From NCBI RefSeq assembly GCF_020892095.1, contig NZ_AP024845.1, positions 2,852,001-2,916,000 of the forward strand: a stretch of DNA of 64,000 nt, in the 5' to 3' direction. Of the stretch, positions 36,247-52,238 are shown one piece after another. Position numbers and translations under genes: made by a program. The notes beneath the pieces were generated by a model. It saw only the letters and a program-made list of their open reading frames with translations, was not told where the DNA came from and did not search any database. Numbering within the stretch: the stretch's first letter is position 1; each line of letters opens with the position of its first letter. Source of the stretch: Claveliimonas bilis (GTDB taxonomy: Bacteria; Bacillota; Clostridia; Lachnospirales; Lachnospiraceae).

Positions 36247-36265
36247 CGAAGGAGGGATAAGATAA

Positions 36266-37549
36266 ATGAGTTATAAAAGAGTCATACCATGTATTTTTAT
36301 AGATTCCGGGAAGGCAGTAAAATGGTTCGACGACCGCACGGTTTTAAGTGAGGACGTCCTCTCACTTGCCCGGTATTACAGCGAACACGGAGCAGATGAG
36401 CTGCTTGTATTTGATCTGTCTGAATCAGATGAAGAGCACGACGAGGCCATTGACCTGATGAAAAAAATCAACCGCATCATCCGTATTCCCATGGTGGCGG
36501 GCGGAAATATCAAACGGCAGGAGGATGTAAAGAAAATCCTCTACGCCGGAGCAAAAAGAGCCATGCTGAATTTTTCCAAATCTGACAATCAGAAGCTGAT
36601 TGAAGATGTGGCAAAGCGGTTCGGCAAAGAAAAGCTTGCAGTCTCTCTGAATGATTTCGATGCGCTGTTTAAACACCAGCACATTATCAATGAGTATGCC
36701 AGCGAGATTATCTTCATGCATCGTCTGGATCTGGATTCTGTTGTTAATGTTACGGACATTCCCTGCGTAGTGGTGACAGATACCATGGAGGAACCTGAAC
36801 TTTTCAAAATATTGAAATGTTCCGGCGTACGGGGATTGTCAGGGAAGTATGTCAGTCAGACAGATATGGATTTTGCAGAATTTAAAAATCGATGTGAGCA
36901 GGAAGATATCCAGATGACTACCTTTGAGAGTATTATGGATTTCTCAGAATTTAAAACAGATGAGAAAGGTTTGATTCCGGTCATTGTGCAGCATTATAAG
37001 ACTCAGGAAGTGCTGATGATGGCCTATATGAATGAGGAATCCTTTGATCAGACTATCAAGACAGGGCGAATGACCTATTTTAGCAGAAGCAGGCAATGTC
37101 TGTGGGTGAAAGGAGAGACAAGCGGGCATTTCCAGTACGTCCGTTCGCTTACGATTGACTGTGACAAAGACACATTGCTTGCCAAAGTGGATCAGGTAGG
37201 GGCAGCCTGCCATACCGGTAATCCTACTTGCTTCTTTCAACCGCTTGTCGGTTCAGATTATGATGAAACGAATCCTCTTCAGGTATTTGAAAGTGTATAT
37301 CAGACCATTGTGGACCGACGGGAACATCCGAAGGAAGGATCTTACACCAATTATCTGTTTGAAAAGGGAATTGACAAGATCCTTAAAAAAGTGGGAGAAG
37401 AAGCAACTGAGATCATTATTGCCGCCAAGAACCCAAATCCGGAAGAGATCAAATATGAACTGGCCGATTTTCTCTATCATGCTATGGTGCTGATGGTGGA
37501 AAGAGGTATTAACTGGGAAGATATTGTAAGGGAATTAGCGGATCGGTAA
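36266..37549 (+). CDS. hisIE: HisF-like domain fused to HisIE (PRA-cyclohydrolase/PRA-pyrophosphohydrolase)
   Basis: 427 residues in three parts. Residues 1 to about 225 resemble the HisA/HisF TIM barrel, beginning [18 protein letters not shown]. The catalytic first Asp of HisF (in PCLDV) is replaced by Phe here. Residues about 230-330 are HisI ([18 protein letters not shown] and [15 protein letters not shown]), and 335-427 HisE ([15 protein letters not shown]). The HisI and HisE parts convert phosphoribosyl-ATP to ProFAR. The N-terminal barrel may be a degenerate or structural domain. The operon ends here; no hisA, hisF, hisH or hisC is nearby. Confidence 0.9.
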
Positions 37550-37558
37550 TTCTTTTAT

Positions 37559-37593
37559 AAGGGGACAGGAGATGAAGATTATCCTGTCTCCTT
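37559..37593 (+). terminator. Possible terminator of the his operon
   Basis: AAGGGGACAGGA (37559-37570) pairs with TCCTGTCTCCTT (37582-37593) with one G-T pair. The following tract (ATTGCTTG) has few T residues, so it may be weak or be an mRNA-stabilising hairpin. Confidence 0.4.
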
Positions 37594-37686
37594 ATTGCTT
37601 GTTCGGATGATTCTAAACATGCCTCTGCCCGCATAAATATGAACAAAAGAGGAACGGAACCAAATAGGGAAACGGAGGCAGACAGA

Positions 37687-38007
37687 TTGGAAAGAGGAGA
37701 GAGCGCAAGGCGGAGAAAAGAGCTTCTTGACAGGACCAGGAGTCTTTATGGAGACAGAGAAGTACCCGCCATTCATCCCAGATACTGGGCTGCATATCAT
37801 AAAATATATGAGGAGGACGGGGCAGAAAACACAGAAACATTCGGCGTCAGGACTGTTCTTTGCATTTTACTTTTTATGGCATTTGTTTTGATGGACAATC
37901 AAGATATCGATATTGCGCAGGTCAGTACAGATCAGATCGTTTCGGCGGTGGAAGAAGAGACACAGGTGCAGGATGTGTGGATGGATCTGGCGGAAAGTGT
38001 CAGATAA
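37687..38007 (+). CDS. Small single-helix membrane protein, unknown function
   Basis: About 106 residues from TTG 37687, which has GGAGG seven bases upstream; an in-frame ATG at 37639 would add 16 residues but has no ribosome site. The N-terminus is Arg/Glu-rich, then a segment with VPAIHPRYWAAYHKIY, one membrane helix (VRTVLCILLFMAFVLM) and an acidic tail. I do not recognise a family. It lies between the his operon and the accessory region. Confidence 0.55.
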   Translation: MERGESARRRKELLDRTRSLYGDREVPAIHPRYWAAYHKIYEEDGAENTETFGVRTVLCILLFMAFVLMDNQDIDIAQVSTDQIVSAVEEETQVQDVWMDLAESVR

Positions 38008-38022
38008 TTCTTGTGTTTTTCT

Positions 38023-38050
38023 TTGTTTTTTGATACATTGAGAGTATAAT
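38023..38050 (+). promoter_or_regulatory. Candidate promoter before the 84-residue protein
   Basis: A perfect TATAAT at 38045-38050 and TTGTTT at 38023-38028 with a 16-base spacer. The -35 is poor, so this is tentative. It would transcribe the 84-residue gene and possibly the sensor kinase behind it. Confidence 0.35.
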
Positions 38051-38132
38051 AAATATATTATTTTGTTTTTCTCTCTTTATGGATCGTATATACCCTTATA
38101 AAGAGAGAGAATGGGACAAAGGAGGAGGTCGT

Positions 38133-38387
38133 ATGAAATATGACACTTGCCTGATCAAGACAGATTCTCTGGATCAGATTCTGCAGTTGAAATACCAGCT
38201 GGATGAGCAGGGGATTCCTTATCGGGAGAAGGTACAATCCGGAAATGGTCTGAGAGATTTTGCTGCTCTTTTGTTCATAACCGGGCAGGGCAGTTATGGA
38301 ACAAACGGAGAGCGGCAAACTACCTATGAATTGTTTGTTTCCAAGGAAGATTATGAACGGGCGCAGCAGTTAATATGCGGGAGATAA
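38133..38387 (+). CDS. Small conserved protein, DUF2007-like
   Basis: 84 residues from ATG 38133, behind GGAGGAGG. No membrane helix. The order of a beta strand, a helix carrying LDQILQLKYQLDEQGIPY, then a beta-rich part ending YELFVSKEDYERAQQLI resembles the DUF2007 putative signal-transducing family, but the match is from memory of the fold pattern only. It ends three bases before the histidine kinase gene. Confidence 0.6.
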   Translation: MKYDTCLIKTDSLDQILQLKYQLDEQGIPYREKVQSGNGLRDFAALLFITGQGSYGTNGERQTTYELFVSKEDYERAQQLICGR

Positions 38388-38390
38388 AAA

Positions 38391-40124
38391 ATGAAGGAGA
38401 CAAAGCCGACATTATTTAAGTTATTGATTTGCTATTTTATGCTTGCATGCTTTGTAGTTACAATTTTATCCATACTTCCATACATTATGATGAAAAATGT
38501 CTTCAGTAATCAGATTGTAAAAAGTGAAAAGAAAGCAACAGCAGAAGCGAATGAAAAGCTTTCTTTTTTACTGGAAGATTTGGAGGGCTTGGCAGACCGA
38601 GTTTATATAAATACGGCTGTCCAAGATCAGCTAAACCAGAAAATCGAGGGAAATTTGACAGGAGATTCACTGGAAGTAAAGGATGTTTTTTCAAACAATC
38701 GGGCATTATACAAAATCAATCAGTATGATGCCTATATTTTAGGATTTAATGGATATAGTTATCGATATTCATATACTGGAAGCTATGAGACAGATTTAGA
38801 TTTAAATTTGATACAGGAAAGTCAATGGTACCAGGATATTATAAAGGAGAATGGAAGATGCATGCTGGTGAACGGTCAATCTACCGGTCTTCCCGGCATG
38901 GAAGATAAGATTATTTTTGGAAGAAGGTTGAATAATACAAGTGGAAATAATCCAGTGGGGATTTTTTTGATCGTCTTTCAAAAAGAAGTAGTAGATGATG
39001 TTTATTCAACACTTACACAAGACGACTATGTAACACTTTATATCATAGATGAAACAGGAAGTCAGATTACTACACTTTCAGAAGAATTAATGTTAAACCC
39101 CGAAGTAATAGAACAGGCAGAAAGAGAAAGCGCTCTGTTTTTGGAACAGGGCGCGAAGCAGGTTGTCTTGACAGATATAAAGAATACAGATTGGACGGTT
39201 GTGGAGATATTAAATCTGGATTTTTTGATGTCTACACTGGAAGCGTTGCGGATAGTTATTATCGGACTTGCAGTTTTTATGGTAATTATAGCTGCTGCTA
39301 TATCATATTTGCTGTTAAATAAACTTTATCGTCCGATTGATCAACTACGTCATGCAATGGCAAAGGTAGAGCAGGGAGATTTTGAGATTGATTTTTTAGA
39401 GACTGAGAAAAAGAATGAAATCAGTCGGTTAAATCAGAGCCTGCTTGACATGGTAAAAGCTCTGGAGACATCTTTTGATAATTTGTATCGGGAACAAAGA
39501 GAAAGAAGAGAAGCGGAGATCAAAATGCTTCAGGCACAGATAAAGCCGCATTTTCTCTACAATACTCTTACATCCGTGCGGATATTGATACGGACAGATA
39601 AAAAAGAAGAGGCAGATCAGATGATAATTTTCCTGATCAAACTTTTGAAAAATACCTTTGACAATAAAGAGATGGTATCTATTGGAGAGGAACTTAGTAT
39701 TTTGGAATGCTACAGTGGTATTTTAAAATACAGGTATCAAAATTTCCACCTGGAATTTAATGTCGATGAAGCAATTCTTAATTGTATGATCCCTAAATTG
39801 CTTTTACAGCCCTTAGTAGAAAATTCAATCGTGCACAATTTAGATGTTCCTGAGAAATTTCTAATGATTAAAGTAGTGGGAAAAAGAGAGAAAGATCGTT
39901 TGATCTTGAATGTGATTGATAATGGAAAGGGAATTGATAAAGAGACGGAAAATCGGATGGTCAATGAAAATGGGCGGATTCAGTGGAAATCAGATTCTAT
40001 AGGGATGCAAAATGTACAGGACAGAATCATACATTGTTTTGGTGAAGAATATGGTCTTTGCATTGAACACAACGAGAAATCTGGTGCAAAAATCAGAGTA
40101 GAAATACCGGTTTTATTTTCTTAA
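38391..40124 (+). CDS. YesM-type sensor histidine kinase
   Basis: 577 residues. One helix near residues 12-32, an extracytoplasmic sensing region to about 285, a second helix (286-308), HAMP domain, a His_kinase domain with LQAQIKPHFLYNTLTSV (phospho-acceptor His), and an ATPase domain with DNGKGID and SIGMQNVQDRI. This is the LytS/YesM family that usually detects sugars or solutes with the partner YesN. It pairs with the AraC-type regulator 14 bases downstream. Codon use and base composition become AT-rich from here. Confidence 0.94.
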   Translation: MKETKPTLFKLLICYFMLACFVVTILSILPYIMMKNVFSNQIVKSEKKATAEANEKLSFLLEDLEGLADRVYINTAVQDQLNQKIEGNLTGDSLEVKDVFSNNRALYKINQYDAYILGFNGYSYRYSYTGSYETDLDLNLIQESQWYQDIIKENGRCMLVNGQSTGLPGMEDKIIFGRRLNNTSGNNPVGIFLIVFQKEVVDDVYSTLTQDDYVTLYIIDETGSQITTLSEELMLNPEVIEQAERESALFLEQGAKQVVLTDIKNTDWTVVEILNLDFLMSTLEALRIVIIGLAVFMVIIAAAISYLLLNKLYRPIDQLRHAMAKVEQGDFEIDFLETEKKNEISRLNQSLLDMVKALETSFDNLYREQRERREAEIKMLQAQIKPHFLYNTLTSVRILIRTDKKEEADQMIIFLIKLLKNTFDNKEMVSIGEELSILECYSGILKYRYQNFHLEFNVDEAILNCMIPKLLLQPLVENSIVHNLDVPEKFLMIKVVGKREKDRLILNVIDNGKGIDKETENRMVNENGRIQWKSDSIGMQNVQDRIIHCFGEEYGLCIEHNEKSGAKIRVEIPVLFS

Positions 40125-40138
40125 GAGAGGGTGAGAAA

Positions 40139-41725
40139 ATGCGGGAAAAGTTGAAAGTTATTATTGTGGATGATGAGAGGATTATCCGAGAATGGATTGC
40201 AATGATAATAGAAAAACATTCAGATGATTATATTGTTTTAGATACAGGGGGAAGTAGTAAGAAAGCAATTGAGATGTGTGTACAAGAACAGGTAGATATT
40301 GTAATAACAGATATCAAAATGAAACCTATGGATGGATTGGAATTAATCCGTGAAATTCAGAAAATATCCCAAAATATTTATTTCATCATTGTCAGTAATT
40401 ATGATGATTTTGCTTATGCAAAACAGGGATTAAAACTGGGGATTACGGATTATCTGCTTAAAGGCGAAATTACTGATGAACAATTAATGAACTGCCTTGA
40501 GGATATACGTAGTCAAATTGAAGAAAAGGGAAATAATAACTTTTTTGAGGCGGAATTAGAAGAACAGATCTTAATACGTCAAAATTACTGGCATCAGATT
40601 TTTAAAGAGAAGGAAAATACAGATGAAATATTAGCTAAACTTGGCTCTGCATTGACAAATGACAATCTTTTTATGATTATCTTTTCAGCAGACCAAATGG
40701 AGAAAATGCCATATGATGAGCAGGTCAGTATAGTAAAAATCATCCATAAACGCATTATGACTCGATTTTCTTGTAATGAAATTTTTGTTCATGAAGATGG
40801 AAACATAGTTGTCCTTTTGAACGTGATATATGATGGGACAAAATCCAGTCTGGAACAGTTGTACACTCTTGCAAGTTTAATTATTAATGATGTGGGTAGT
40901 AAAGGCAGAAGCATATCCTGTGTGATTACAATACCTTTTTCCAGTTTGAAAGAGAGCTGTAAAATTTATCAGGAATATCAAGAATATTTTTTATATCGAT
41001 TCTATTCCGAGGGTGGCAAGATTATAACTAATTCCGCATTACAAAATAAGTGGGATAAAATTGACAGCAAAAGGAAACTATCTATGGAATACCTATCCTC
41101 CATTCTTTATCGTCGTGATTATGCGCAGGTATATCACTGTCTCAGAGAGCAGGGAGAAGAGTTGATGAAAAATCATAAAACTTCCCCTGAAGCAGTAAGA
41201 GAATGGTATCAAAAACTTTTCCTTTTGTTGCTGCATTATTTTTCAGATTATAAACAGGAAAAACTTATAGAAAAGGCATCCTCTGTAATGGAAATCATTA
41301 TGAGGGCGCCGTTGTTCAGAGATATTCTGGAGGCTATTTATGGATTTTACGAAAGTGCGGTACAGGAAATAGCGAATATGGATATTATGCAGGATGTGGT
41401 AAATGAAGTAATCGATTATATCACACATCATTATGAAGAAAAAATTACTCTTGCCTCCATGGCGGAAAAAGTATATTTGTCGGAAAATTATCTGGGAAAG
41501 ATTTTTAAGCGGCGGACAGGAGAAAATTTTAATAGTTACCTTACGGAATTGCGCATAAATATCGCAAAGCAAAAATTAAAAAACCCCAATATGAAAATCT
41601 ATCAGATTGCCGAGGATATAGGATTTCAAAACGTAGGCTATTTTACACAGGTATTTAAAAAAGTGACCGGAAGTTCGCCAAAAGAATATAGGCAGAGTAT
41701 AGCAGAACACGACTTTGAGCTGTAG
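40139..41725 (+). CDS. YesN-type response regulator with AraC DNA-binding domain
   Basis: 528 residues. The N-terminal receiver domain contains IIVDDERIIREW and VITDIKMKPMDGLEL, where Asp58 is the phosphorylation site, plus a Lys near YLLKGEI. A middle region of about 300 residues has no recognised fold. The last 100 residues form an AraC/XylS helix-turn-helix (LASMAEKVYLSENYLGKIF then IYQIAEDIGFQNVGYFTQVFKK). It is co-transcribed with the YesM-type kinase and likely activates the genes downstream. A terminator follows. Confidence 0.94.
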   Translation: MREKLKVIIVDDERIIREWIAMIIEKHSDDYIVLDTGGSSKKAIEMCVQEQVDIVITDIKMKPMDGLELIREIQKISQNIYFIIVSNYDDFAYAKQGLKLGITDYLLKGEITDEQLMNCLEDIRSQIEEKGNNNFFEAELEEQILIRQNYWHQIFKEKENTDEILAKLGSALTNDNLFMIIFSADQMEKMPYDEQVSIVKIIHKRIMTRFSCNEIFVHEDGNIVVLLNVIYDGTKSSLEQLYTLASLIINDVGSKGRSISCVITIPFSSLKESCKIYQEYQEYFLYRFYSEGGKIITNSALQNKWDKIDSKRKLSMEYLSSILYRRDYAQVYHCLREQGEELMKNHKTSPEAVREWYQKLFLLLLHYFSDYKQEKLIEKASSVMEIIMRAPLFRDILEAIYGFYESAVQEIANMDIMQDVVNEVIDYITHHYEEKITLASMAEKVYLSENYLGKIFKRRTGENFNSYLTELRINIAKQKLKNPNMKIYQIAEDIGFQNVGYFTQVFKKVTGSSPKEYRQSIAEHDFEL

Positions 41726-41738
41726 TCCAGAAGAAGAT

Positions 41739-41770
41739 AGCAGGGAGAATCTCTCTCTGCTTTTTCTTTT
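41739..41770 (+). terminator. Terminator after the two-component system genes
   Basis: AGCAGGGAGA (41739-41748) pairs with TCTCTCTGCT (41752-41761) with one G-T pair, followed by TTTTCTTTT. It separates the regulator genes from the transport operon, so the latter needs its own promoter in the 41771-42013 gap. Confidence 0.7.
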
Positions 41771-41861
41771 GCTTTATCTAAAATTTAAGATTTCTTAATC
41801 CTAAACAAAAATCCCTTAATTTCACATCAAAAAGCGGAATATTAGAATAAAATAACCGATA

Positions 41862-41878
41862 ATTGTAATAAATACAAT
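41862..41878. promoter_or_regulatory. Inverted repeat in the leader region of the transport operon
   Basis: ATTGTA-ATAAA-TACAAT (arms 41862-41867 and 41873-41878) in a very AT-rich gap between the regulators and the transport operon. No convincing -35/-10 pair could be chosen; TATAAT at 41952-41957 has no good -35. It could be an activator or repressor site, or chance in AT-rich DNA. Confidence 0.3.
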
Positions 41879-42013
41879 AAATCTTCTTAACAAGACAGAA
41901 AATTAAAGTAAAAACACAATAAAACGGATGTGATTTTTAAAAATGGAATTTTATAATTAGAATATAAATCATTATATGCGCGCAAAGGATTTATAGAAAA
42001 TAAGGAGGTTATA

Positions 42014-43336
42014 GTGAATAATTCCAGATGGAAACATATAGTCGGGATAACAGGAGCTATTTGCTTGCTTTTGGTGTTAATTGCGTCCTGCAGCATCAAT
42101 CAAAATGATGGAGAAAGATCAAATGAAAAAGATCCGATAGTACTGCGGGTATTGTTGGAAGCAAGCGCGAGAAGCGAAGCAATTGTAGAAAATGTAGAAT
42201 CGTTTGAAAAGCAGCATAATGTCGATGTAGAAATTTCCATGCTGGGGCGTGAAAATTTAGACGAAAAAACGCTCATCGATCTTTCGACAGAATCAGGAGA
42301 GTCAGATGTAATCTATATCTTTCGAGAAACATTTGCACAATACGCAAAGAATGGATGGCTCATGCCTCTGGACTCTTATATGGAGAAATCAAAAAAGGAA
42401 CTTATGAAAGAAGATTTTTTAGAAGGGTCTCTGGATATGTGCGAATATGAGGAAAATACGTATGGTCTTCCAATATATTTAACCACATGTATGATGTACT
42501 ATAGAACGGATCTGTTTGAAAAAGCAGGGATTGAAGCAGTTCCGCAGACATGGGAAGAATTGAAAGAAGCGTGTCAGAAGTTAAAAGACATAGGCGTTTA
42601 TCCTCTTGCGATGCGCGGTAACAATTATTCCTATGGTGGAGGTGCAGACTGGCATTTGGGAATGTTGGTATACAGTTTTGGCGCTCAATATTATCTTAAT
42701 TATCCAGAGGATCTGACTCCAGTACTTGATTCAAAAGAATTTGTAGAAGCTGTCAGTTTTTATGCAGATCTGCTAAATGAATATGGTGTCCCCGGTACAC
42801 AGACGAATAACTATACAGATAATATCCTGGCTGTAAAAAATGGAAATGTCGGAATTTGGATTGATGGAGCAGGATTAGTTACAGATTATCTAACGTCTGA
42901 TTCGGCAGTGACAGAAGAGAATATAGGATTTGCCTCTATTCCGGCAGGAAAGGCAGGAAAAGTAGCACCCAAAAATGTGCATATGCTTTCTATAAATGCG
43001 AAATCCGAACACCCAAAAATGGCATATAAGTTTATTGAATGGGTAACAAGCATAGAGCATCAAATGGAAAGTACATTTATTGGCACAACTCGAAGAAGTG
43101 TATTTGAAAGCACAGCATATAAAGAAAAGCATAATTATGGGTCGGGCGCATGGTTGGAAGTCTATAAGGATAGTTTAAAATACGCTCAAAATGATTATTT
43201 TCCGGTTACACCTGAATGGCCACAGGTTTCTAAGGAAATTTCAGAAGCATTTGCGGATATTTTAATGGGAGAAAATGCCGGATCAAGAATGCACCAGGCA
43301 AATGAAAAAGTCAAAAGAATCTTTATCAGTAGGTAA
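42014..43336 (+). CDS. Extracellular solute-binding protein, family 1, lipoprotein
   Basis: 440 residues. GTG start at 42014 behind AAGGAGG. A lipoprotein signal with LLVLIASC gives Cys26 as the lipid-modified residue. The mature protein has the two-domain pattern of carbohydrate-binding family 1 proteins, with MPLDSYMEKSKKELMKEDFL and VPQTWEELKEACQKLKDIG. No matching CUT1-type permeases follow; the downstream permeases are of the other (NitT/TauT) type. It may feed a transporter elsewhere or serve as a sensor partner for the YesM-type kinase encoded before it. Confidence 0.88.
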   Translation: MNNSRWKHIVGITGAICLLLVLIASCSINQNDGERSNEKDPIVLRVLLEASARSEAIVENVESFEKQHNVDVEISMLGRENLDEKTLIDLSTESGESDVIYIFRETFAQYAKNGWLMPLDSYMEKSKKELMKEDFLEGSLDMCEYEENTYGLPIYLTTCMMYYRTDLFEKAGIEAVPQTWEELKEACQKLKDIGVYPLAMRGNNYSYGGGADWHLGMLVYSFGAQYYLNYPEDLTPVLDSKEFVEAVSFYADLLNEYGVPGTQTNNYTDNILAVKNGNVGIWIDGAGLVTDYLTSDSAVTEENIGFASIPAGKAGKVAPKNVHMLSINAKSEHPKMAYKFIEWVTSIEHQMESTFIGTTRRSVFESTAYKEKHNYGSGAWLEVYKDSLKYAQNDYFPVTPEWPQVSKEISEAFADILMGENAGSRMHQANEKVKRIFISR

Positions 43337-43350
43337 GAGGAGGTTTACAG

Positions 43351-44427
43351 ATGAGAAAGAAAATAATCAGTATCATTTTAACGGCAGTTATGGTTTTAGG
43401 AATTTTAGCAGGATGTTCGTCCAGTGAAAAGGAAGCAGCGGAAGGATCAGGCGGTTCTTCTTCTGAACCGTTAAGAGTGGCCTTGCAGCCGGTATGTCTG
43501 GGAGCCCCGGTGGGCTATGCATATGAAAAAGGGTATTATGAAGACGAAGGACTAGATGTTGAACTCACATATTTTGACACAGGAGCACCTGAAAATGAAG
43601 CCTTTGCAGCCGGCCAGATTGATATCGCTGCAAGTGGACTTGCTTCTGTGTTTTCTCTGGCTACAGGTAATGCAACATGGGTAGGAGAAATTAATACCAC
43701 AGGAGGACAGGGGATTTATTTCAGACCTGATAATCCGGCAGCACAGGTAACGACCACTACAGAGCAGGGAGTAGAAATACTTGGCGATGCAGAAACAGTA
43801 AAAGGAATGAAATTTCTTGCTCCACTTGGAACATCGGCGCAGTATCTGGTAATGAATTATTGTGAACAACTTGGACTATCTTCCTCTGATTATGAGATTG
43901 TATCCATGGAATTTGGACCTGCTCTCCAGGCATTTAAATCAGGAGAAGGCGACGCTATTTCCTGTGATATCTGGTATGCTATTGAGGCAGAAGAGGCTGG
44001 ATTCTCAAGGGCTGCTACTTTTGAAGAGGCCTGTGGAATTGAACCTAATGATGGAATTTTTGTCTCTAATACGCTGATAGAAGAACGCCGTGATGACGTA
44101 GTGAAATTTTTACGTGCAACATATAAAGCATTAGAAGAGCTTTCTGATGATTCTGTAAGACATGAGTTCTGTCTCCGGTGGTATGCTGAAAATGGCCGTG
44201 AATTTACAGAAGAACAGATGGATAAAGAAATTGAACGGCGGTGGTATATTACATCGGAAATCATGGAGCAGGAAGACTATATCATGGGTGAGGGTGTTAC
44301 GGCTATGGCAGAATTTTATGTGGAAGATGGAAAGATTTCAGAAGACATGTTCCCGAACGTACAGAAATCTTATGATCCTTCTTTATTAGAAGAAGCGCTG
44401 GGAATAACAATACAATGTGATAACTAA
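43351..44427 (+). CDS. NitT/TauT-type ABC importer solute-binding lipoprotein
   Basis: 358 residues. Signal peptide with lipobox LGILAGC (Cys22). The mature part has the SsuA/TauA/THI5-like pattern: VALQPVCLGAPVGYAYEKG, YEDEGLDVELTYFD and AAGQIDIAASGLASVFSLATG. Such proteins bind nitrate, taurine, sulfonates, sulfate esters or pyrimidine precursors. It fits the two permeases and ATPases following. A strong hairpin after its stop could raise its level relative to the permeases. Confidence 0.9.
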   Translation: MRKKIISIILTAVMVLGILAGCSSSEKEAAEGSGGSSSEPLRVALQPVCLGAPVGYAYEKGYYEDEGLDVELTYFDTGAPENEAFAAGQIDIAASGLASVFSLATGNATWVGEINTTGGQGIYFRPDNPAAQVTTTTEQGVEILGDAETVKGMKFLAPLGTSAQYLVMNYCEQLGLSSSDYEIVSMEFGPALQAFKSGEGDAISCDIWYAIEAEEAGFSRAATFEEACGIEPNDGIFVSNTLIEERRDDVVKFLRATYKALEELSDDSVRHEFCLRWYAENGREFTEEQMDKEIERRWYITSEIMEQEDYIMGEGVTAMAEFYVEDGKISEDMFPNVQKSYDPSLLEEALGITIQCDN

Positions 44428-44433
44428 AAAGCA

Positions 44434-44459
44434 TGACAGGGCCTTATTTGGCTCTGTCA
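44434..44459 (+). other. Intra-operon hairpin after the solute-binding protein gene
   Basis: TGACAGGGCC (44434-44443) pairs with GGCTCTGTCA (44450-44459) with one G-T pair and a 6-base loop, and is not followed by a T run. Such hairpins after binding-protein genes often protect the upstream mRNA or reduce readthrough. Confidence 0.5.
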
Positions 44460-44492
44460 ATATAACAGTTATAGTTCAGTAGGTGGTTTTAT

Positions 44493-45281
44493 ATGAAGAA
44501 AAGTAAAGAAAAGATGGGAAAATATAAGATCGTATCGGTTATCTCTATTGCTGTTTTTCTGGCAATATGGGAAATATGCACAGACATTCTGCATCTTGCT
44601 CCCGCTTCAATGCTTCCAAGTCCGATCTCTGTTCTGGAAACATTTATTCAGAAATTATATGATCCCAGCCCGGATGGGGCGACGATGATAGAACATATGG
44701 CAGCGAGTATGGAAATCGCATTGATAGGATATGTGCTGGGAGCGCTGGTCGGAATTCCACTGGCAATATTGATGGGATGGTATGAAAATATAGATATGTT
44801 TGTTCGCCCATTGTTTGACCTATTACGTCCGATTCCAGGAATTGCCTGGATTCCTATTTTTATCATTTTGTTCGGAATTGGAACTTTTTCCAGAGCGGTT
44901 GTCATTTTTATATCTTCGTTCATATCTTGTGTTGTAAATACATATACAGGGATAAAGCAAACGAAACAGGTTCATTTGTGGGTGGGACAAACGTTTGGTG
45001 CTTCTAATACACAACTTCTTATAAGAGTGGCAATTCCATCAGCGCTTCCAATGATTATTACCGGATTGAAAGTGGCTTTAGGAGCATCCTGGAGCGCATT
45101 GGTTGCTGCAGAACTTTTAGCATCAACAAAGGGGTTAGGATTTATGATCCAACAATGCAGAGGGATTTTCAGGCCAGATGTTATTATAGCAGGAATGATT
45201 GCAATTGGAGGAATAGGTGCATTTTTAACTTATCTATTATCACTGCTTGAAAAAGCTATATTAAAAGGGGGCAGATGGTAG
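44493..45281 (+). CDS. NitT/TauT-type ABC importer permease 1
   Basis: 262 residues, about six membrane helices of the BPD_transp_1 type. The coupling (EAA) loop is visible as VGQTFGASNTQLLIRVAIPSA, and the family-typical LLRPIPGIAWIPIFIILFGIG and GLGFMIQQCRG are present. The ATG at 44493 follows AGGTGG. It ends where the second permease starts, so the two permeases form one translational unit and probably a heterodimer. Confidence 0.92.
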   Translation: MKKSKEKMGKYKIVSVISIAVFLAIWEICTDILHLAPASMLPSPISVLETFIQKLYDPSPDGATMIEHMAASMEIALIGYVLGALVGIPLAILMGWYENIDMFVRPLFDLLRPIPGIAWIPIFIILFGIGTFSRAVVIFISSFISCVVNTYTGIKQTKQVHLWVGQTFGASNTQLLIRVAIPSALPMIITGLKVALGASWSALVAAELLASTKGLGFMIQQCRGIFRPDVIIAGMIAIGGIGAFLTYLLSLLEKAILKGGRW

Positions 45282-46055
45282 ATGAAAAAAAGAGGAAAGG
45301 CTATTCTGATAGGAGTTTTTGCATTTTTAAGTTTTTTGGCTTTGTGGCATTTCGGAACGAGCAAAACAATCTTTGGCGAACTGATCCCAGGTCCGATTAT
45401 CGTTTTTCAGGCATTCTTTCAGTCCTTTTCTGAACCGATAGGACCCTGCACAATCTTAGGACATATTGGATGGAGTTTATCTAGGGTGGCCATCGCATAC
45501 GTTCTGGCCGCCGCCGCAGGAATTATATTAGGAGTACTTATGGGGTGGAATAAATATATAGAAGCCATTTTCATGCCGCTTTATAACATGATACGACCCA
45601 TTCCCCCCATTGCATGGATTCCACTGGCAATTCTGTGGTTTGGCCTAGCAGAGCTTCCGAAATATTTTTTAATTTTTTTAGCTGCATTTTGTACAATAAC
45701 CATGAATGCCTATCAAGGTGCAAAGACAGTAGATCCTACTTTGATAGGCGCTTCAAAAATGTTAGGAGCAAATAACATACAGGTATTTTTTACCATTATT
45801 CTTCCATCGTCTGTTCCAACGATTTTTGCAGGACTTCAAGTTGCTGTTTCCGTATGTTGGACTACTGTCGTAGCAGCAGAAATGGTTCGTTCAGCGGAAG
45901 GACTGGGATGGATCATTATAAGTGCTCAATCAAATAATGATACGACACAAATGCTGGTGGGAATCCTTGCAATTGGAATCATAGGTTTTATTTTGGCATT
46001 TGTTATGAGAAAGGCGGAGGAATATTTATGTGCATGGAACAGAAGCGAGAAGTAA
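45282..46055 (+). CDS. NitT/TauT-type ABC importer permease 2
   Basis: 257 residues, same fold as its neighbour with clear paralogy (IRPIPPIAWIPLAILWFGLAE, then GASKMLGANNIQVFFTIILP as the EAA loop, and SAEGLGWIIISAQSNN). The ATG follows the first permease stop directly. Most NitT/TauT importers encode only one permease that homodimerises; two suggest a heterodimeric pore. It overlaps the next start by 28 bases. Confidence 0.92.
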   Translation: MKKRGKAILIGVFAFLSFLALWHFGTSKTIFGELIPGPIIVFQAFFQSFSEPIGPCTILGHIGWSLSRVAIAYVLAAAAGIILGVLMGWNKYIEAIFMPLYNMIRPIPPIAWIPLAILWFGLAELPKYFLIFLAAFCTITMNAYQGAKTVDPTLIGASKMLGANNIQVFFTIILPSSVPTIFAGLQVAVSVCWTTVVAAEMVRSAEGLGWIIISAQSNNDTTQMLVGILAIGIIGFILAFVMRKAEEYLCAWNRSEK

Positions 46056-46810
46056 AAAAAATGATAGAATGTAACAGCCTCAGCAAAATTTATTTAGACA
46101 GAGCAACAAAGACAGAAAACCATGTAGTAGAAAAAATTGATTTATCTGTAAATGAAAACGAATTTCTTGTTTTGTTCGGACCGGGGCAGTGTGGAAAAAC
46201 AACAATATTAAATATGCTGGCAGGCCTGGAAACACCTACATCCGGTGAAATAGAAGTAAATGGAAAAAAGGTGGAAGGGCCGGATCCTGAAAGAGGAGTT
46301 GTCTATCAGTCGATTTCTTTATTCCCGTGGCTTACAACAATGGGAAATGTGGAATATGGACCCAAAATGCGACGAATAAAAAAAGAAGAAAGACAGAAAC
46401 GGGCACAATATTATATTGATTTAGTAGGCTTAAGTGGATTCGAAAGATCTTATCCGATCCAACTGTCAGGCGGGATGAAACAAAGAGTCGGCATTGCGAG
46501 AGCTTACTGCAATAATCCGGTCGTAATGTTTATGGACGAACCTTTTGGAGCGCTGGATGCACAGACAAGATATTTAATGCAGGAAGAGTTAGAAAAAATA
46601 TGTCAGAAAGAAAAAAAGACAGTAGTATTTGTTACTAATAATATCGAGGAAGCAATTTATCTGGCGGATCGGATTGTTGTATTAAGGAATTGCCCGACGA
46701 GTATAAAGGCAGAATATAAGATTACATTACCTCGTCCAAGAGATAATACATCGCCGGAATTTTTGGCATTGCGCAAAGAAATATCTTCAATTGTAGATAT
46801 TACATTGTAG
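46028..46810 (+). CDS. NitT/TauT-type ABC importer ATPase 1 (switch His replaced)
   Basis: 260 residues. Walker A GPGQCGKTT (residues 51-59), Q-loop VYQSISLFPW, intact signature LSGGM (146-150), Walker B VVMFMDEPFGALD with the catalytic Glu171. The switch histidine of canonical FVTHD is replaced: the sequence is FVTNN, so residue 204 is Asn. This is expected to lower ATP hydrolysis at the site using this Walker A. The ATG at 46028 follows GGAGG and overlaps permease 2; an ATG at 46061 has a weaker site. Confidence 0.92.
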   Translation: MCMEQKREVKKMIECNSLSKIYLDRATKTENHVVEKIDLSVNENEFLVLFGPGQCGKTTILNMLAGLETPTSGEIEVNGKKVEGPDPERGVVYQSISLFPWLTTMGNVEYGPKMRRIKKEERQKRAQYYIDLVGLSGFERSYPIQLSGGMKQRVGIARAYCNNPVVMFMDEPFGALDAQTRYLMQEELEKICQKEKKTVVFVTNNIEEAIYLADRIVVLRNCPTSIKAEYKITLPRPRDNTSPEFLALRKEISSIVDITL

Positions 46811-46825
46811 GGAAGGTGGGATTTT

Positions 46826-47569
46826 ATGAAGGAAGATACAATTGTAGAAGTAAAGAATCTCACAAAAAAGTTTGGAGATCTGCTGGTGCTGGATAATATC
46901 TCTTTCGAAATCAAAAGAGGCGATCTCTTATGTGTTGTAGGACCTACAGGCTGTGGAAAAACGACATTTTTGAACAGCCTCACGAAATTATATGATATTA
47001 CATCCGGACAAATTCTTTTAGATGGGGAAACAGTAAACTTATCAAAGCATAATATTGCATACATTTTTCAGGAAACATCTACAATGCCATGGCTGACTGT
47101 AGAAAAAAATGTATCTTTTGGTCTTGATATTAAGCATGTTCCGGAAGCAGAGAAGAAAAAAAGGGTAGAAGAGGTATTGGAGATAGTCGGTTTAATAGAT
47201 TATCGGAAATATTATCCACGACAATTATCCTCAAGCATGCAGCAAAGAGTAGTAATTGCAAGAGCATTTGCCACAAAACCGGAGTTATTATTAATGGATG
47301 AACCATATGCGCAATTAGATGTAGAACTACGTTTCCGATTAGAAGATGAATTGGTAAAATTGTGGGAACAAACCGGGACAACAGTATTATTTATTACACA
47401 TAATATCGAAGAAGCGGTCTATTTAGGGGAAAATATTATGATCTTGACGAATAAACCTACCAAGGTAAAAAAGACTCTCCCTAATTCAATACCAAGACCC
47501 CGTGATATTTCAGCTCCAGAATTTGTGAAACTAAGAAACCAGGTAACAGAATTAATCAAGTGGTGGTAA
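46826..47569 (+). CDS. NitT/TauT-type ABC importer ATPase 2 (degenerate signature)
   Basis: 247 residues. Walker A GPTGCGKTT (39-47), Q-loop FQETSTMPW, Walker B ELLLMDEPYAQLD with Glu159, and an intact switch His192 (FITHN). The ABC signature is degenerate: LSSSM (134-138) in place of LSGGM/Q. Combined with ATPase 1, one composite ATP site would hold both defects and the other none. The stop lies two bases before the sulfatase ATG. Confidence 0.92.
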   Translation: MKEDTIVEVKNLTKKFGDLLVLDNISFEIKRGDLLCVVGPTGCGKTTFLNSLTKLYDITSGQILLDGETVNLSKHNIAYIFQETSTMPWLTVEKNVSFGLDIKHVPEAEKKKRVEEVLEIVGLIDYRKYYPRQLSSSMQQRVVIARAFATKPELLLMDEPYAQLDVELRFRLEDELVKLWEQTGTTVLFITHNIEEAVYLGENIMILTNKPTKVKKTLPNSIPRPRDISAPEFVKLRNQVTELIKWW

Positions 47570-47571
47570 AA

Positions 47572-49044
47572 ATGAAAGAGAAATTGAATATTGTATGGTT
47601 TTGCACAGATCAGCAAAGATATGATACAATCCATTCTCTTGGGAATCCGTACATACACACACCAAATTTAGACAGGCTGGTCAGGGAAGGAGTCGCTTTT
47701 ACAAAAGCTTATACACAATGTCCAATATGTACACCAAGCCGTTCTTCCTTCTTAACAGGGCGGTACCCAAGAACAACAAGGGCCTTTTATAATGGAAATG
47801 ATAAATATTCAAAAGATGAAGTACTTGTTACAAAACTATTGCAGGAAACCGGATATACCTGTGGATTGACAGGAAAATTGCATCTGACTTCTCCGCAGGG
47901 ACGCATGGAAAAACGCACCGATGACGGATATACGTATTTTCAATGGAGTCACCATCCGCATAACGATTGGCCAAATGGTGAAAATGATTACCAGAACTGG
48001 TTAAAGCAAAAAGGTATCTGCTGGGAAGAAGTATACGGTGGAAGATATACCAGTATGTCACGGTGGCCTCCCATTGAAAATGAAAATTTTTCCGGAAAGG
48101 AAGTAGGCGTTCCTGCTGAATATCATCAGACAACTTGGTGTGTAGAAAAGGCAATTGAATTTATAGATCAAAATAAAGAAACTCCATGGCTGATTAGTAT
48201 CAACCCATTTGATCCGCATCCTCCGCTAGATCCACCGCAGGAGTATAAGGACAGGTTGAAAATAGAAGATATGCCTCTTCCACTGTGGAAAGACGGAGAA
48301 TTGAAGAATAAACCTTCTCATCAGCAGCTGGATTATAAAATCGGCGGTCAGAACGGAGCAACTGATTCTATTGTCGGGATGAGTGATGATGACAAGAGAG
48401 AAAAAATACGGGATTATTATGCAGAGATCGAGCTTATTGATGATCAGCTGGGTAGATTGATGGAATATTTAGACCGCACAGGACAGAGAGAAAATACTAT
48501 GATCATTTTTATGAGTGATCACGGAGAAATGAATGGAGATCACGGATTATACTGGAAAGGAGCTTATTTTTATGAGGCATTGGTGCATGTTCCGTTGATC
48601 ATTTCATGTCCATCGAGATTTCAGCAAAATGTTATTTGCGATGCATTGGTGGAACTGGTAGATATTGCGCCGACGATTCTGGAAACAATTGGAGAAGAAA
48701 TCCCGTTTTATATGCAGGGAAAAAGTTTATATTCTATTTTGACGGGAGCAACATCCTTGCATCACCATAAAGACTCTGTCTATAGTGAGTTCTATTACTG
48801 CCTGAAAGGATGTCATGAGGATAGATTTGCAACCATGTATTTTGATGGGCGGTATAAAATTGTAACTTACTGTAATATGGATGAGGGAGAGCTTTATGAT
48901 CTGGAAACAGATCCGTCTGAATTTGACAATTTGTGGGATGATCCAACTTATCACAGTCTGCGGGAAGAAATGATTAAAAAGAATTTTGATAAAGCGTTAA
49001 TGTGTAATATGGATTTTTCCATGAACCCCCTTTATGAATATTAG
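47572..49044 (+). CDS. Cys-type sulfatase, predicted cytoplasmic
   Basis: 490 residues from ATG 47572, behind GGTGG; GTG codons at 47560 and 47563 are in frame but overlap the ATPase gene. Type I sulfatase: metal-binding DQQ near residue 13, and the formylglycine motif CTPSR at 53-57, where Cys53 would be oxidised. A metal-binding MSDHGEMNGDH segment lies near residue 315. There is no signal peptide or helix at the N-terminus (MKEKLNIVWFCTDQQ), so it should act in the cytoplasm on imported sulfate esters. The class and substrate cannot be told. Confidence 0.92.
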   Translation: MKEKLNIVWFCTDQQRYDTIHSLGNPYIHTPNLDRLVREGVAFTKAYTQCPICTPSRSSFLTGRYPRTTRAFYNGNDKYSKDEVLVTKLLQETGYTCGLTGKLHLTSPQGRMEKRTDDGYTYFQWSHHPHNDWPNGENDYQNWLKQKGICWEEVYGGRYTSMSRWPPIENENFSGKEVGVPAEYHQTTWCVEKAIEFIDQNKETPWLISINPFDPHPPLDPPQEYKDRLKIEDMPLPLWKDGELKNKPSHQQLDYKIGGQNGATDSIVGMSDDDKREKIRDYYAEIELIDDQLGRLMEYLDRTGQRENTMIIFMSDHGEMNGDHGLYWKGAYFYEALVHVPLIISCPSRFQQNVICDALVELVDIAPTILETIGEEIPFYMQGKSLYSILTGATSLHHHKDSVYSEFYYCLKGCHEDRFATMYFDGRYKIVTYCNMDEGELYDLETDPSEFDNLWDDPTYHSLREEMIKKNFDKALMCNMDFSMNPLYEY

Positions 49045-49113
49045 TTCCAGAAGATAGATGTGTTTTATGTAGGGGAGGAATGAACAACGAATAGACGGGA
49101 AGTATTATATTTA

Positions 49114-50184
49114 TTGATAAAACCTGCCTCTGGTGCCTGTAACCTGCAGTGTACCTACTGCTTCTACAGAGATGAAATTAAAAAAAGGAAAGTGGAATAT
49201 TGTGGTAAAATGTCAGAGAAGACCTTAAGAAATATTATAAAAAAGGCCTCTTATCATGAATGCAAAGAGTGTGTACTCGCATTTCAGGGAGGGGAGCCTA
49301 CATTGGCTGGTCTCGACTTTTTCCAAAAAGCAGTGGAATATGAAAAAGAGCTTGCAGAACAGGATATACGATTTGTGAATACTATTCAGACAAATGGATA
49401 CGGACTGGATAAAGAATGGGTAAAATTTTTTGCTGAAAATCAATTTCTTGTAGGAGTTTCGTTAGACGGGACATCTTATACACATAATGCATATAGACGA
49501 ACCAAAGAAGAATTGGAAACATTTGAACCTGTAATGCAGTTTATTGGCTGGTTGAAAGAGTATAATGTGAAATTTAACATTTTAACAGTTGTAACGGAAA
49601 AGATGGCATTTTCAGCAAAAAGAATATATCGTTTTTTTACAAAAAACCAGTTTTATAATATGCAATTTATTCCATGTATCGATCCTTTAGATGGAGAAAG
49701 ATCTGAATGCAGTCTGACAGCTAAAGGCTATGGACGCTTTCTATGTGAATTATTCGATGAATGGTATGCAGATATTCTTGCAGGAAAGAGAATTTATATC
49801 CGGCAATTTGAAGATTATTTATTGCTGGCAAAATGTGGAAGGGCAGAAAGCTGCGGTACAAATGGCAGCTGTGGTATTCAATATGTAATTGAAGCTGATG
49901 GTGGAATTTACCCATGCGACTTTTATGTGTTAGATCAATATTGTCTGGGAAATATTAACCAAATCAGCTATCAAGAGAGCGAAAAAAGAGGTCAGCAGAT
50001 TGAATTTTTTCAAAAATCGAGAGAAATACCTCCCGAATGTAGCGATTGTCCATATTACTTATTATGCAGGAATGGATGCTTCCGTTATAGAGAGAAGGAT
50101 TTTCTAAAAAACAAGTTCTGTGAATCTTACAAAGATTTTTTTGCATATGCAGGGGATAGGCTGATCTGGATGAGTAGATGGTAA
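49114..50184 (+). CDS. Anaerobic sulfatase-maturating enzyme (radical SAM, anSME)
   Basis: 356 residues from TTG 49114. Radical SAM motif CNLQCTYCFY (Cys9, Cys13, Cys16) and SPASM-type extra cysteines (CGRAESCGTNGSCG, CDFYVLDQYC, CSDCPYYLLCRNGC). It oxidises the sulfatase Cys to formylglycine without oxygen. The start is doubtful: the conserved-looking N-terminus continues in frame to a TGA at 49081, and the strongest ribosome site precedes an ATG at 49080 in another frame that stops after four codons. A frameshift or very rare start may be involved. It is the natural partner of the sulfatase gene. Confidence 0.9.
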   Translation: MIKPASGACNLQCTYCFYRDEIKKRKVEYCGKMSEKTLRNIIKKASYHECKECVLAFQGGEPTLAGLDFFQKAVEYEKELAEQDIRFVNTIQTNGYGLDKEWVKFFAENQFLVGVSLDGTSYTHNAYRRTKEELETFEPVMQFIGWLKEYNVKFNILTVVTEKMAFSAKRIYRFFTKNQFYNMQFIPCIDPLDGERSECSLTAKGYGRFLCELFDEWYADILAGKRIYIRQFEDYLLLAKCGRAESCGTNGSCGIQYVIEADGGIYPCDFYVLDQYCLGNINQISYQESEKRGQQIEFFQKSREIPPECSDCPYYLLCRNGCFRYREKDFLKNKFCESYKDFFAYAGDRLIWMSRW

Positions 50185-50212
50185 TATAGTATAAAAGCAA
50201 AAAGAGGCGTTT

Positions 50213-50243
50213 CCTCCCGTCTTTCAATAGACGGGAGGTTTTT
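50213..50243 (+). terminator. Terminator of the transport and sulfatase operon
   Basis: CCTCCCGTCT (50213-50222) pairs with AGACGGGAGG (50229-50238), loop of six, followed by five T. It lies 28 bases after the anSME stop and marks the end of the AT-rich region. Confidence 0.85.
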
Positions 50244-50372
50244 GTGTGTATAATCATAAAACTATTTATAGAAATTAAATAAAATTTGAAAATCTTTTCA
50301 TAATACGTTACACTACTAAGTGTTTACAAAGTATAGAGTACTTTCATAAAACAATATGAAACAGGAGTATAT

Positions 50373-52238
50373 ATGAGAAAATTAGCATTAGATGATGAAA
50401 TATTATTGAAAATCGAGAAGCCGGCCCGTTACATTGGCGGTGAGGTTAATTCTGTGATGAAGGATAAAGATAAAGTGGAAGTCCGCTTTGCCATGTGCTT
50501 CCCCGACGTTTACGAAATTGGAATGTCTCACCTGGGCATCCAGATTCTTTATGATATGTTTAATCGGATGGAAGATGTGTGGTGTGAACGGGTATATTCC
50601 CCCTGGGTGGACTTAGATGAGATCATGCGCCGGGAAGACATTCCTCTTTTTGCGCTGGAATCCCAGGATCCTATCCGGGATTTTGATTTCCTGGGCATTA
50701 CGATCCAGTACGAAATGTGTTACACAAACATTCTTCAGGTACTGGATCTTAGTCATATTCCGCTGCGTTCTTTGGAACGGACAGAGGAGGACCCAATTGT
50801 CATAGGAGGAGGCCCCTGTGCCTACAATCCGGAGCCTCTTGCGCCATTCTTCGACCTTTTCTATATCGGTGAGGGCGAGACGGTATACCGGCAGCTTCTG
50901 GATCTTTATAAAGAGAATAAGAAAAGAGGCGGAAACCGTATGGATTTTCTTGAGATGGCGGCAAGTGTAGAGGGGATTTATGTGCCTGCTTTCTATACCG
51001 TTTCCTATCATGAGGACGGAACTCTTGCTTCCTTTACTCCTGACCGTTCCTGTGCACCGGTAACCATAAAGAAACAGGTTGTGATGGATATGGAGGAAAC
51101 AACATATCCGGAAGCTCCGGTAGTTCCTTTTATCAAAGTGACCCAGGACCGGGTTGTGCTGGAGATCCAGAGGGGCTGTATCCGGGGGTGCCGTTTCTGT
51201 CAGGCCGGAATGCTTTACCGTCCTACCCGGGAGAGAAACGTAGAAGATTTAAAAGAATATGCATGGAAAATGCTGAAAAATACGGGACATGAGGAGATTT
51301 CATTAAGTTCGTTAAGTTCCAGCGATTACAGCCAATTAAAAGAAATTGTTACTTTTCTGATTGAAGAATTTAAGGATGCGGGAATCAATATTTCTCTTCC
51401 ATCGCTTAGAATAGACGCGTTCTCTTTGGATGTAATGAGCAAAGTACAGGATATTCGTAAAAGCAGTCTTACCTTCGCACCGGAGGCAGGCTCTCAGCGT
51501 ATGCGCAATGTCATTAACAAAGGGCTGACAGAGGAAGATATTCTGGGAGGAGCAGGAGCGGCATTTGAAGGAGGATGGAATAAAGTAAAGCTTTACTTTA
51601 TGCTGGGGCTTCCAACCGAAACACAGGAAGATATGGAAGCTATTGCTGTTCTTGCAGACAAGGTGGCAAGGCGTTACTATGAGATTCCCAAGGAACAAAG
51701 AAATGGAAAATGTCAGATTACGGCCAGTTCTTCTTTCTTCATTCCCAAACCTTTTACTCCGTTTCAGTGGGCTAAGATGTATAAGAATGAAGAATATATT
51801 GCCAGGGCGGCAATTGTAAAACATGCGTTCCAGAATCAGCTGAACCGTAAAAGTCTGAAATACAATTGGCACGATGCGGAAGTGACTGTTCTGGAAGGCG
51901 TTCTTGCCAGAGGAGACAGAAGGGTTGCGGATGTCATTATGACTGCCTATCAGATGGGGTGCATTTACGATGCCTGGACAGAACATTTTGATTATGAAAA
52001 ATGGCTGAAAGCTTTTGAGGACAACGGGCTGGATATTGCTTTTTATAATGAGAGGGAACGCTCCCTGGACGAGCTTTTCCCCTGGGATTTTATTGATATC
52101 GGCGTGACAAAAGAGTTTTTAAAACGAGAGTGGGAACATGCTATGAAAGGAGAAGTTACTCCAAACTGCCGCCAGCAATGTTCCGGATGCGGTGTGGCAA
52201 AATGGAAAGGAGGTGTCTGTGTTGAAGGTAAGAATTAA
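50373..52238 (+). CDS. TIGR03960 family B12-binding-type radical SAM protein
   Basis: 621 residues. The B12-binding-like N-terminal half is followed by a radical SAM domain with CIRGCRFCQ (CxxxCxxC) near residue 270 and ends CRQQCSGCGVAKWKGG with extra cysteines. The family occurs next to a TIGR03936 (DUF2344) partner, as here. Function unknown; a role in RNA or protein modification is guessed from neighbourhood in other genomes. It overlaps the partner's start. Confidence 0.9.
   Translation: MRKLALDDEILLKIEKPARYIGGEVNSVMKDKDKVEVRFAMCFPDVYEIGMSHLGIQILYDMFNRMEDVWCERVYSPWVDLDEIMRREDIPLFALESQDPIRDFDFLGITIQYEMCYTNILQVLDLSHIPLRSLERTEEDPIVIGGGPCAYNPEPLAPFFDLFYIGEGETVYRQLLDLYKENKKRGGNRMDFLEMAASVEGIYVPAFYTVSYHEDGTLASFTPDRSCAPVTIKKQVVMDMEETTYPEAPVVPFIKVTQDRVVLEIQRGCIRGCRFCQAGMLYRPTRERNVEDLKEYAWKMLKNTGHEEISLSSLSSSDYSQLKEIVTFLIEEFKDAGINISLPSLRIDAFSLDVMSKVQDIRKSSLTFAPEAGSQRMRNVINKGLTEEDILGGAGAAFEGGWNKVKLYFMLGLPTETQEDMEAIAVLADKVARRYYEIPKEQRNGKCQITASSSFFIPKPFTPFQWAKMYKNEEYIARAAIVKHAFQNQLNRKSLKYNWHDAEVTVLEGVLARGDRRVADVIMTAYQMGCIYDAWTEHFDYEKWLKAFEDNGLDIAFYNERERSLDELFPWDFIDIGVTKEFLKREWEHAMKGEVTPNCRQQCSGCGVAKWKGGVCVEGKN

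Follow-up and report, generated by a model that had tools for sequence, protein, structure and literature searches.

A candidate gene island for organosulfate import and cytoplasmic desulfation in Claveliimonas bilis

We analyzed a stretch of 64,000 nucleotides from the genome of Claveliimonas bilis (contig NZ_AP024845.1, positions 2,852,001 to 2,916,000; hereafter the window, to which all plain positions refer), in which an island at 38391-50184 encodes a YesM/YesN regulatory pair, two solute-binding lipoproteins, an ATP-binding cassette (ABC) importer of the NitT/TauT type, a sulfatase, and an anaerobic sulfatase-maturating enzyme (anSME). With a probability of roughly 0.8, this cluster appears to import an intact sulfated small molecule and to remove its sulfate in the cytoplasm, in an oxygen-avoiding bacterium. 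The first-pass annotation had proposed this function, which gains support from the conserved linkage of related importers to sulfatases, from a control within the same genomes, and from the lack of export signals in the sulfatases. Because related clusters recur in the bacterial family, the Lachnospiraceae, the island seems to represent a genuine nutrient-uptake system that has received little study. Genomes and loci are designated below by G and L numbers.

The importer was followed through 397 genomes of the family, a draw rather than all of its genomes, with the window's own included. Permease 1 matches at E<=1e-70 in 36 places distributed over 21 genomes. The conservation of neighbors in family genomes, on which the first-pass annotation had staked its proposal, was borne out: at 23 of the 35 places outside the window a sulfatase open reading frame lies within -8/+9 kb (BLAST), against 1.82 expected from how densely sulfatases occur in these genomes (249 PF00884 hits), and the corresponding P of about 3e-24 assumes independent importer places, an assumption that near-copies such as G025/G349 violate. 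At 18 of the 35 places the sulfatase follows directly after the second ATPase gene (ATP2), on the same strand. In the permease tree (36 rows), the window falls in a clade of 26 rows (100/100 support), 23 of which, window included, are sulfatase-linked, whereas this holds for 1 of the 10 rows of the sister clade. Among the 150 of 249 sulfatase matches listed, at least 20 of the 26 clade loci and at least 1 of the 10 sister loci have a sulfatase within 10 kb, compared with at least 2 of 64 other TauC-like loci in the same genomes (Fisher 9e-13 for clade loci versus other TauC-like loci). A phylum-wide draw of 398 genomes (E<=1e-80) gave a single match besides the window's own genome, and this out-of-family locus (G757) shows YesM, YesN, NMT1-type binding protein, two permeases, two ATPases, sulfatase, and TauE (PF01925) in one run.

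The closest relatives of the sulfatase came from a scan of named genomes, which returned 45 loci. Eight of these encode a sulfatase at 71-76% identity and are labelled as Hungatella hathewayi, two Clostridium sp., four Lachnospiraceae, and one Provencibacterium; two of the eight are also among the 36 permease places (L025 = G056; L028 = L104 = G263:C33). In six, the sulfatase lies downstream of the binding protein, both permeases, and both ATPases, with a second sulfatase intervening (in L024 the first ATPase, ATP1, is unlisted, and a long ATP2 reading frame overlaps its place), and a second sulfatase gene is found upstream in all eight. The upstream place of YesMN is taken in the eight by a LacI-type regulator, checked in L020 and assigned by N-terminal likeness in the other seven, and in L024 a YesN/YesM pair is additionally located farther downstream. 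Within the family genomes, a sulfatase of at least about 70% identity occurs in 3 of 397, own included, and two more genomes carry only a 48% copy. Apparent partner exchange between importer and sulfatase classes is visible on comparing L144, one of the importers closest to that of the window, whose permease is 62% identical to that of the window and whose sulfatase is only 28% identical, with L104, where the values are 59% and 75%.

The other components recur to different degrees. YesMN pairing is frequent (17 of 35 places, pairs between neighboring importers in G224 and G263 being counted from both) and not universal. The anSME, present in the window's cluster as first annotated, lies near only 3 of the 35 related places (2 within reach, and a third once reading extends to the end of the G254 contig), with a fourth at +9.5 kb in G211, and within the examined stretch of 1 of the 8 close relatives (L024, 46%); otherwise it is encoded elsewhere in the genome. 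We found anSME genes (E<=1e-60) in 17 of the 21 importer genomes, 16 over the curated cut-off and G241 under it; they occur in all 16 genomes with a sulfatase-linked importer and in G254, and none was found at this threshold in G069, G143, G347, and G401, which hold only unlinked importer copies. TauE/SafE-type genes are present at 9 of 35 places (BLAST), two of which (L144, L152) were confirmed as PF01925, which suggests that the sulfate is often discarded. Both lipoproteins of the initial proposal are present in the window, but the MalE-like one stands outside the conserved system: a search of the 396 other family genomes (E<=1e-60) found no relative, so that it is the window's own (1 of 397) and is ruled out as a conserved component. 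Possibly this orphan acts together with YesM in sensing.

Further genes adjoin particular members of the importer family. In L148 (9130-15477), three sulfatases and a TauE/SafE-like gene follow the importer. MtaA/CmuA-like methyltransferase genes adjoin sulfatase-linked importers at L143:3587-4876, whose protein matches below cut-offs, and at L148:10681-11784. Two sister-clade importers (L163:744-9112, L164:752-9185) adjoin a glycyl radical enzyme, its activase, and a fructose-6-phosphate-aldolase-like protein; identification of the L163 enzyme as a sulfopropanediol lyase is unsupported, since the HpsG/HpfG cut-offs are not reached, nor is any specific glycyl radical enzyme cut-off. Others lie beside a diphosphate-type phosphofructokinase (L167) and a LarA-like protein (L165), and L165, L167, and L170 have neighbors that resemble, by eye, class II aldolases, triosephosphate isomerase, or zinc dehydrogenases, possibly pointing to an unusual sugar or sulfo-sugar pathway.

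The sulfatase starts at GTG 47560 or ATG 47572, residues being numbered here from the latter, and contains the motif C-T-P-S-R. In an alignment of 32 sulfatase rows, which includes a few near-duplicates and counts one sulfatase from two places, the motif Cys and Arg, D13, H216, and D316 are kept in all 32, H317 in 29, K329 in 30 (Arg in 2), and K102/H104 in 23, the nine other rows being gapped at that place. We take these to be the catalytic and metal residues, D13 being presumably the first metal Asp. The C-x-[PA]-x-R motif and the metal and catalytic residues expected of an S1 formylglycine sulfatase are present. As first annotated, the protein lacks an export signal, the hydrophobic N-terminal stretch being absent; among the 29 sulfatase rows listed next to relatives, no 15-residue stretch within the first 50 residues has a mean hydrophobicity above 1.12 (Kyte-Doolittle). 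An exported sulfatase was rejected on the basis of these N-termini, hydrophobic neither in the window protein nor in the 29 rows, none of which looks exported. The structure model is moderate, with a mean predicted local distance difference test score (pLDDT) of 72.2 and segments such as 49-56, which includes the active-site Cys, below 50. Among solved structures, the dimeric sulfatase SpAS1 and phosphonate monoester hydrolases have the closest folds, followed by S1_7, carrageenan, and host-glycan sulfatases. Among named candidates, choline sulfatase (BetC, S1_12) belongs to the same superfamily and has CxPxR in common with the window enzyme, which does not reach its cut-off (TIGR03417, 205.8 versus 433.45); the phosphonate monoester hydrolase PehA was rejected despite a similar fold (NF045661, 241.2 versus 900), as were the arylsulfatase PRK13759 and Mn-arylsulfatase identities, whose curated cut-offs are not reached.

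The maturase passes TIGR03942 (353.7 versus 349.45 bits; 354.4 in a second scan), falls short of a second model, PRK13758 (364.2 versus 441), and in a search matches the solved anSME 4k37 over its full length (E 3.3e-93). The CX3CX2C motif, the cysteines of the SPASM region, and the Asp of YPCDFY, whose roles we assume to be those of other maturases, are all kept in an alignment with four relatives. This anSME is predicted to convert the Cys of the adjoining sulfatase into formylglycine. Its frame has no ATG, and the start is probably TTG 49114 or just upstream. By eye, a GGAGG ribosome-binding-like site and an ATG ahead of the maturase (49076-49116) open only a 4-codon frame.

The importer is heteromeric, with two different permeases and two different ATPases. 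Its NMT1-type binding protein gave a better model than the sulfatase (mean pLDDT 84.6), and the nearest folds are SsuA and TauA. The importer resembles the TauABC/SsuABC sulfonate importers without being a member (TauC, 170.8 versus 342; SsuA_fam, 62.9 versus 163.5). The Sao transporter was also rejected, with scores of 251.3 (ATP1) and 207.1 (ATP2) versus 360 for SaoA, 138.3 versus 295 for SaoP, and 26.4 versus 300 for SaoX. As an annotation rule, members of the 26-row permease clade can probably be called organosulfate importers.

All components named in the first-pass annotation were recovered as open reading frames where it had placed them, on the + strand (Table 1). The single run that it described from transport genes to maturase also holds, with 42014-50184 co-directional and intergenic gaps of -28 to +69 bases. 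Lipoboxes were read by eye in both lipoproteins (IASC, LAGC). Because a terminator-like hairpin follows yesN, the yesMN genes probably form a separate transcript, although little weight attaches to hairpins of this kind (10 found versus 7.0 +/- 2.7 expected). A scan of 36000-52000 against Rfam gave zero RNA-element matches at gathering scores.

Table 1 Features of the island and of its insertion site in the window
Feature	Position	Strand	Basis and remarks
YesM-type sensor histidine kinase	38391..40124	+	PF06580 (His_kinase), PF00672 (HAMP); subthreshold matches to dCache_1 and HATPase_c
YesN-type response regulator with AraC helix-turn-helix	40139..41725	+	PF00072, PF12833
Terminator-like hairpin 3' of yesN	41739..41761	+	10 pairs; pattern scan only
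MalE-like solute-binding lipoprotein	42014..43336	+	PF01547 (SBP_bac_1); orphan, sugar-type permeases not adjacent
NMT1/SsuA-TauA-type solute-binding lipoprotein	43351..44427	+	PF09084 (NMT1); fold nearest SsuA, TauA; recurs with related permeases
TauC-like permease 1	44493..45281	+	PF00528 (BPD_transp_1); permease-tree clade
TauC-like permease 2	45282..46055	+	PF00528 (BPD_transp_1); TauC model match G000:C1:2897294-2898040 below cut-off
ABC ATPase 1 (ATP1)	46028..46810	+	PF00005 (ABC_tran)
ABC ATPase 2 (ATP2)	46826..47569	+	NCBIfam ABC ATPase models
Cys-type formylglycine sulfatase without export signal	47560..49044	+	PF00884 (163 bits), SGSH_C; CTPSR; fold nearest SpAS1 and phosphonate monoester hydrolases
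anSME	49114..50184	+	Radical S-adenosylmethionine (SAM) and SPASM; TIGR03942; 4k37 match; CX3CX2C and YPCDFY
Terminator-like hairpin ending the run	50213..50238	+	10 pairs, 7 GC, T-run; pattern scan only
Island, unmatched at this site in same-species genome G001	38373..50281	.	DNA matches stop at 38372 and restart at 50282

We propose the following sequence of events. On the outer side of the cell, the NMT1-type lipoprotein would capture a small molecule bearing sulfate, and the ATP-driven heteromeric importer would carry the ester in intact. The adjoining radical SAM maturase would turn the active-site Cys of the sulfatase into formylglycine without oxygen, and the cytoplasmic sulfatase would then hydrolyze the sulfate ester. 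The desulfated organic part would most likely supply the cell with carbon, and the sulfate would be assimilated or exported, in some relatives perhaps via the adjoining TauE/SafE-type protein. YesMN would sense the substrate or a related cue and switch the operon on.

Rather than supplying carbon, the system could serve sulfur scavenging, a role that the ats genes play in Pseudomonas; we regard this as unlikely, as the TauE/SafE-type genes at 9 of 35 relatives suggest that sulfur is often discarded, and polyol/uronate-type dehydrogenases, PfkB kinase, aldolase, GH43, or glycerate-kinase-type genes occur near several relatives. Specifically, the sulfatases are followed in L025 by an enzyme of the mannitol-dehydrogenase type, in L022 by a zinc dehydrogenase, and in L101 by an aldolase and a PfkB kinase, while L100 has a MOFRL glycerate-kinase-type gene next to the sulfatase, and L103 and L177 have GH43. 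Because these neighbors are not conserved between loci, a sugar-like product is only a lead, and a small sugar-like sulfate as substrate is our guess. A different chemistry, in which a phosphonate or phosphodiester enters through the importer and the enzyme is a formylglycine phosphonate monoester or phosphodiester hydrolase, seems improbable. Enzymes of this type from Burkholderia and Rhizobium rank high in both the fold comparison and the PDB sequence search, and the metal site reads D-Q, with a Gln that the Rhizobium enzyme and choline sulfatase also use (PMC5870055). Nevertheless, the PehA cut-off is far off (241 versus 900), the TauE/SafE-type genes recur beside relatives, and the top match in both sequence and fold searches of the PDB is a dimeric sulfatase, SpAS1 (4upi). 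Least probable is an importer for an unrelated or only sulfonate-type compound beside a sulfatase acting on another molecule: 9 of the 10 sister-clade permeases lack a sulfatase, several adjoining other catabolic genes, and the orthologous sulfatases of L021 and L022 are paired with other transporters, yet the importer-sulfatase linkage is far over chance and over the same-genome controls, and the ATP2 and sulfatase reading frames overlap or abut.

Several observations weigh against organosulfate import with cytoplasmic desulfation. The sulfatase scores below every curated specific cut-off that it matched and reaches no substrate-specific model, and its nearest folds include the phosphonate monoester hydrolases. 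The importer scores below the TauC cut-off, the binding protein is almost as close to Thi5/HMP-type folds as to SsuA and TauA, the start codon of the maturase is irregular, and the island itself holds no TauE gene. Beside the sulfatase orthologue of L021, a sugar-type ABC importer replaces the NMT1-type importer, and a tripartite tricarboxylate transporter lies beside the orthologue of L022 and a 50% relative in L027. The importer places are not fully independent, given the near-copies and the importer pairs in G224 and G263 that share neighbors. Finally, 12 of the 35 related importers have no sulfatase nearby, including G254, which is cut by a contig end, and the importer family is therefore not exclusive to sulfate esters.

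The principle of importing and then desulfating is already known. In Pseudomonas, the ats genes (importer atsRBC, arylsulfatase atsA, and atsK) join a sulfonate-type ABC importer to a cytoplasmic sulfatase, as in the window, but maturation is aerobic and neither an anSME nor YesMN is known to be included. Bacteroides, toward which knowledge of gut sulfated-glycan use is skewed, cleaves sulfate esters outside the cytoplasm. We infer from its relatives and its anSME that the carrier of the island is a gut anaerobe, and the first-pass annotation had considered an importing version in such an organism to be new. This claim was too strong: the account of ats1 and ats2 in the anaerobe Bifidobacterium breve already combines glycosulfatases with anSMEs, a transport system, and a regulator (PMC9239261). 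That composition would fit the window if its sulfatase is a glycosulfatase; the passage on ats1 and ats2 names neither a transporter type nor YesMN. Acesulfame clusters resemble the window in an ABC importer with a TauA-like binding protein and, as predicted for the window, in cytoplasmic hydrolysis, and in Bosea and Chelatococcus also contain a TauE/SafE exporter (PMC10413263). The Shinella cluster encodes, like the window, a formylglycine sulfatase (502 aa, CxPxR; PMC11500405), whereas the Bosea enzyme is a metallo-β-lactamase-type sulfatase. The Shinella system differs from the window in its oxygen-dependent maturation and in an importer described as unsettled, and YesMN, present in the window, is not named in the passages on these clusters. 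Pairing of this importer with a sulfatase in such bacteria was not described in the titles and abstract openings of the open-licence papers that literature searches returned, which does not establish its absence from print. A word search of a sulfatase review (PMC10154612) for Firmicutes, transport, and anSME gave nothing, and another review calls the glycosaminoglycan loci of gut Firmicutes uncharacterised (PMC9067506).

Three things seem new: the importer clade itself, the way its members are repeatedly joined to sulfatases of several classes, and how often YesMN genes adjoin them. A dedicated route of this kind, if true, would keep both products private to its owner; it would also predict which sulfated metabolites the owner removes, and it offers a testable link from named genes to sulfate-conjugate uptake. 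More broadly, we hypothesize, at somewhat less than even odds, that the importer scaffold, made up of the binding protein, both permeases, and both ATPases, serves as a modular platform for organosulfate uptake, repeatedly paired in the family with at least three cytoplasmic sulfatase classes and often controlled by YesMN. Through each pairing, a different host- or diet-derived sulfate conjugate would enter intact; the organic part would be kept and the sulfate released to the community.

The island has a GC content of 37.3% (38391-50184), compared with 45.2% on each flank, and is bordered by what we take to be his genes on one side and a TIGR03960-like radical SAM gene on the other. At this site, G001 has two other genes instead, probably encoding membrane proteins, and the island genes are found there in 0 of 7 other genus genomes examined. 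Because it is missing at the site in same-species and genus genomes and is AT-rich, the island looks acquired, probably laterally and at a variable site. The contents of this site differ among the seven genus genomes, some genes being common to several, and the whole interval from the his genes to the radical SAM gene (38007-50373; equivalents L105-L111) varies in content and length among them. The orthologous sulfatase is absent from the other genus genomes (11 searched, own included). Sulfatase matches of any kind occur in 6 of the 11, again own included, with non-self matches at <=41% identity. The source genome has a second sulfatase locus (G000:C1:1633373-1637711; L099:7373-11710), which encodes an AraC-type regulator, a sulfatase with the motif CIAAR, a TauE/SafE protein, and a second anSME. 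The G001 sulfatase, 31% identical to that of the window, is probably the counterpart of this CIAAR sulfatase.

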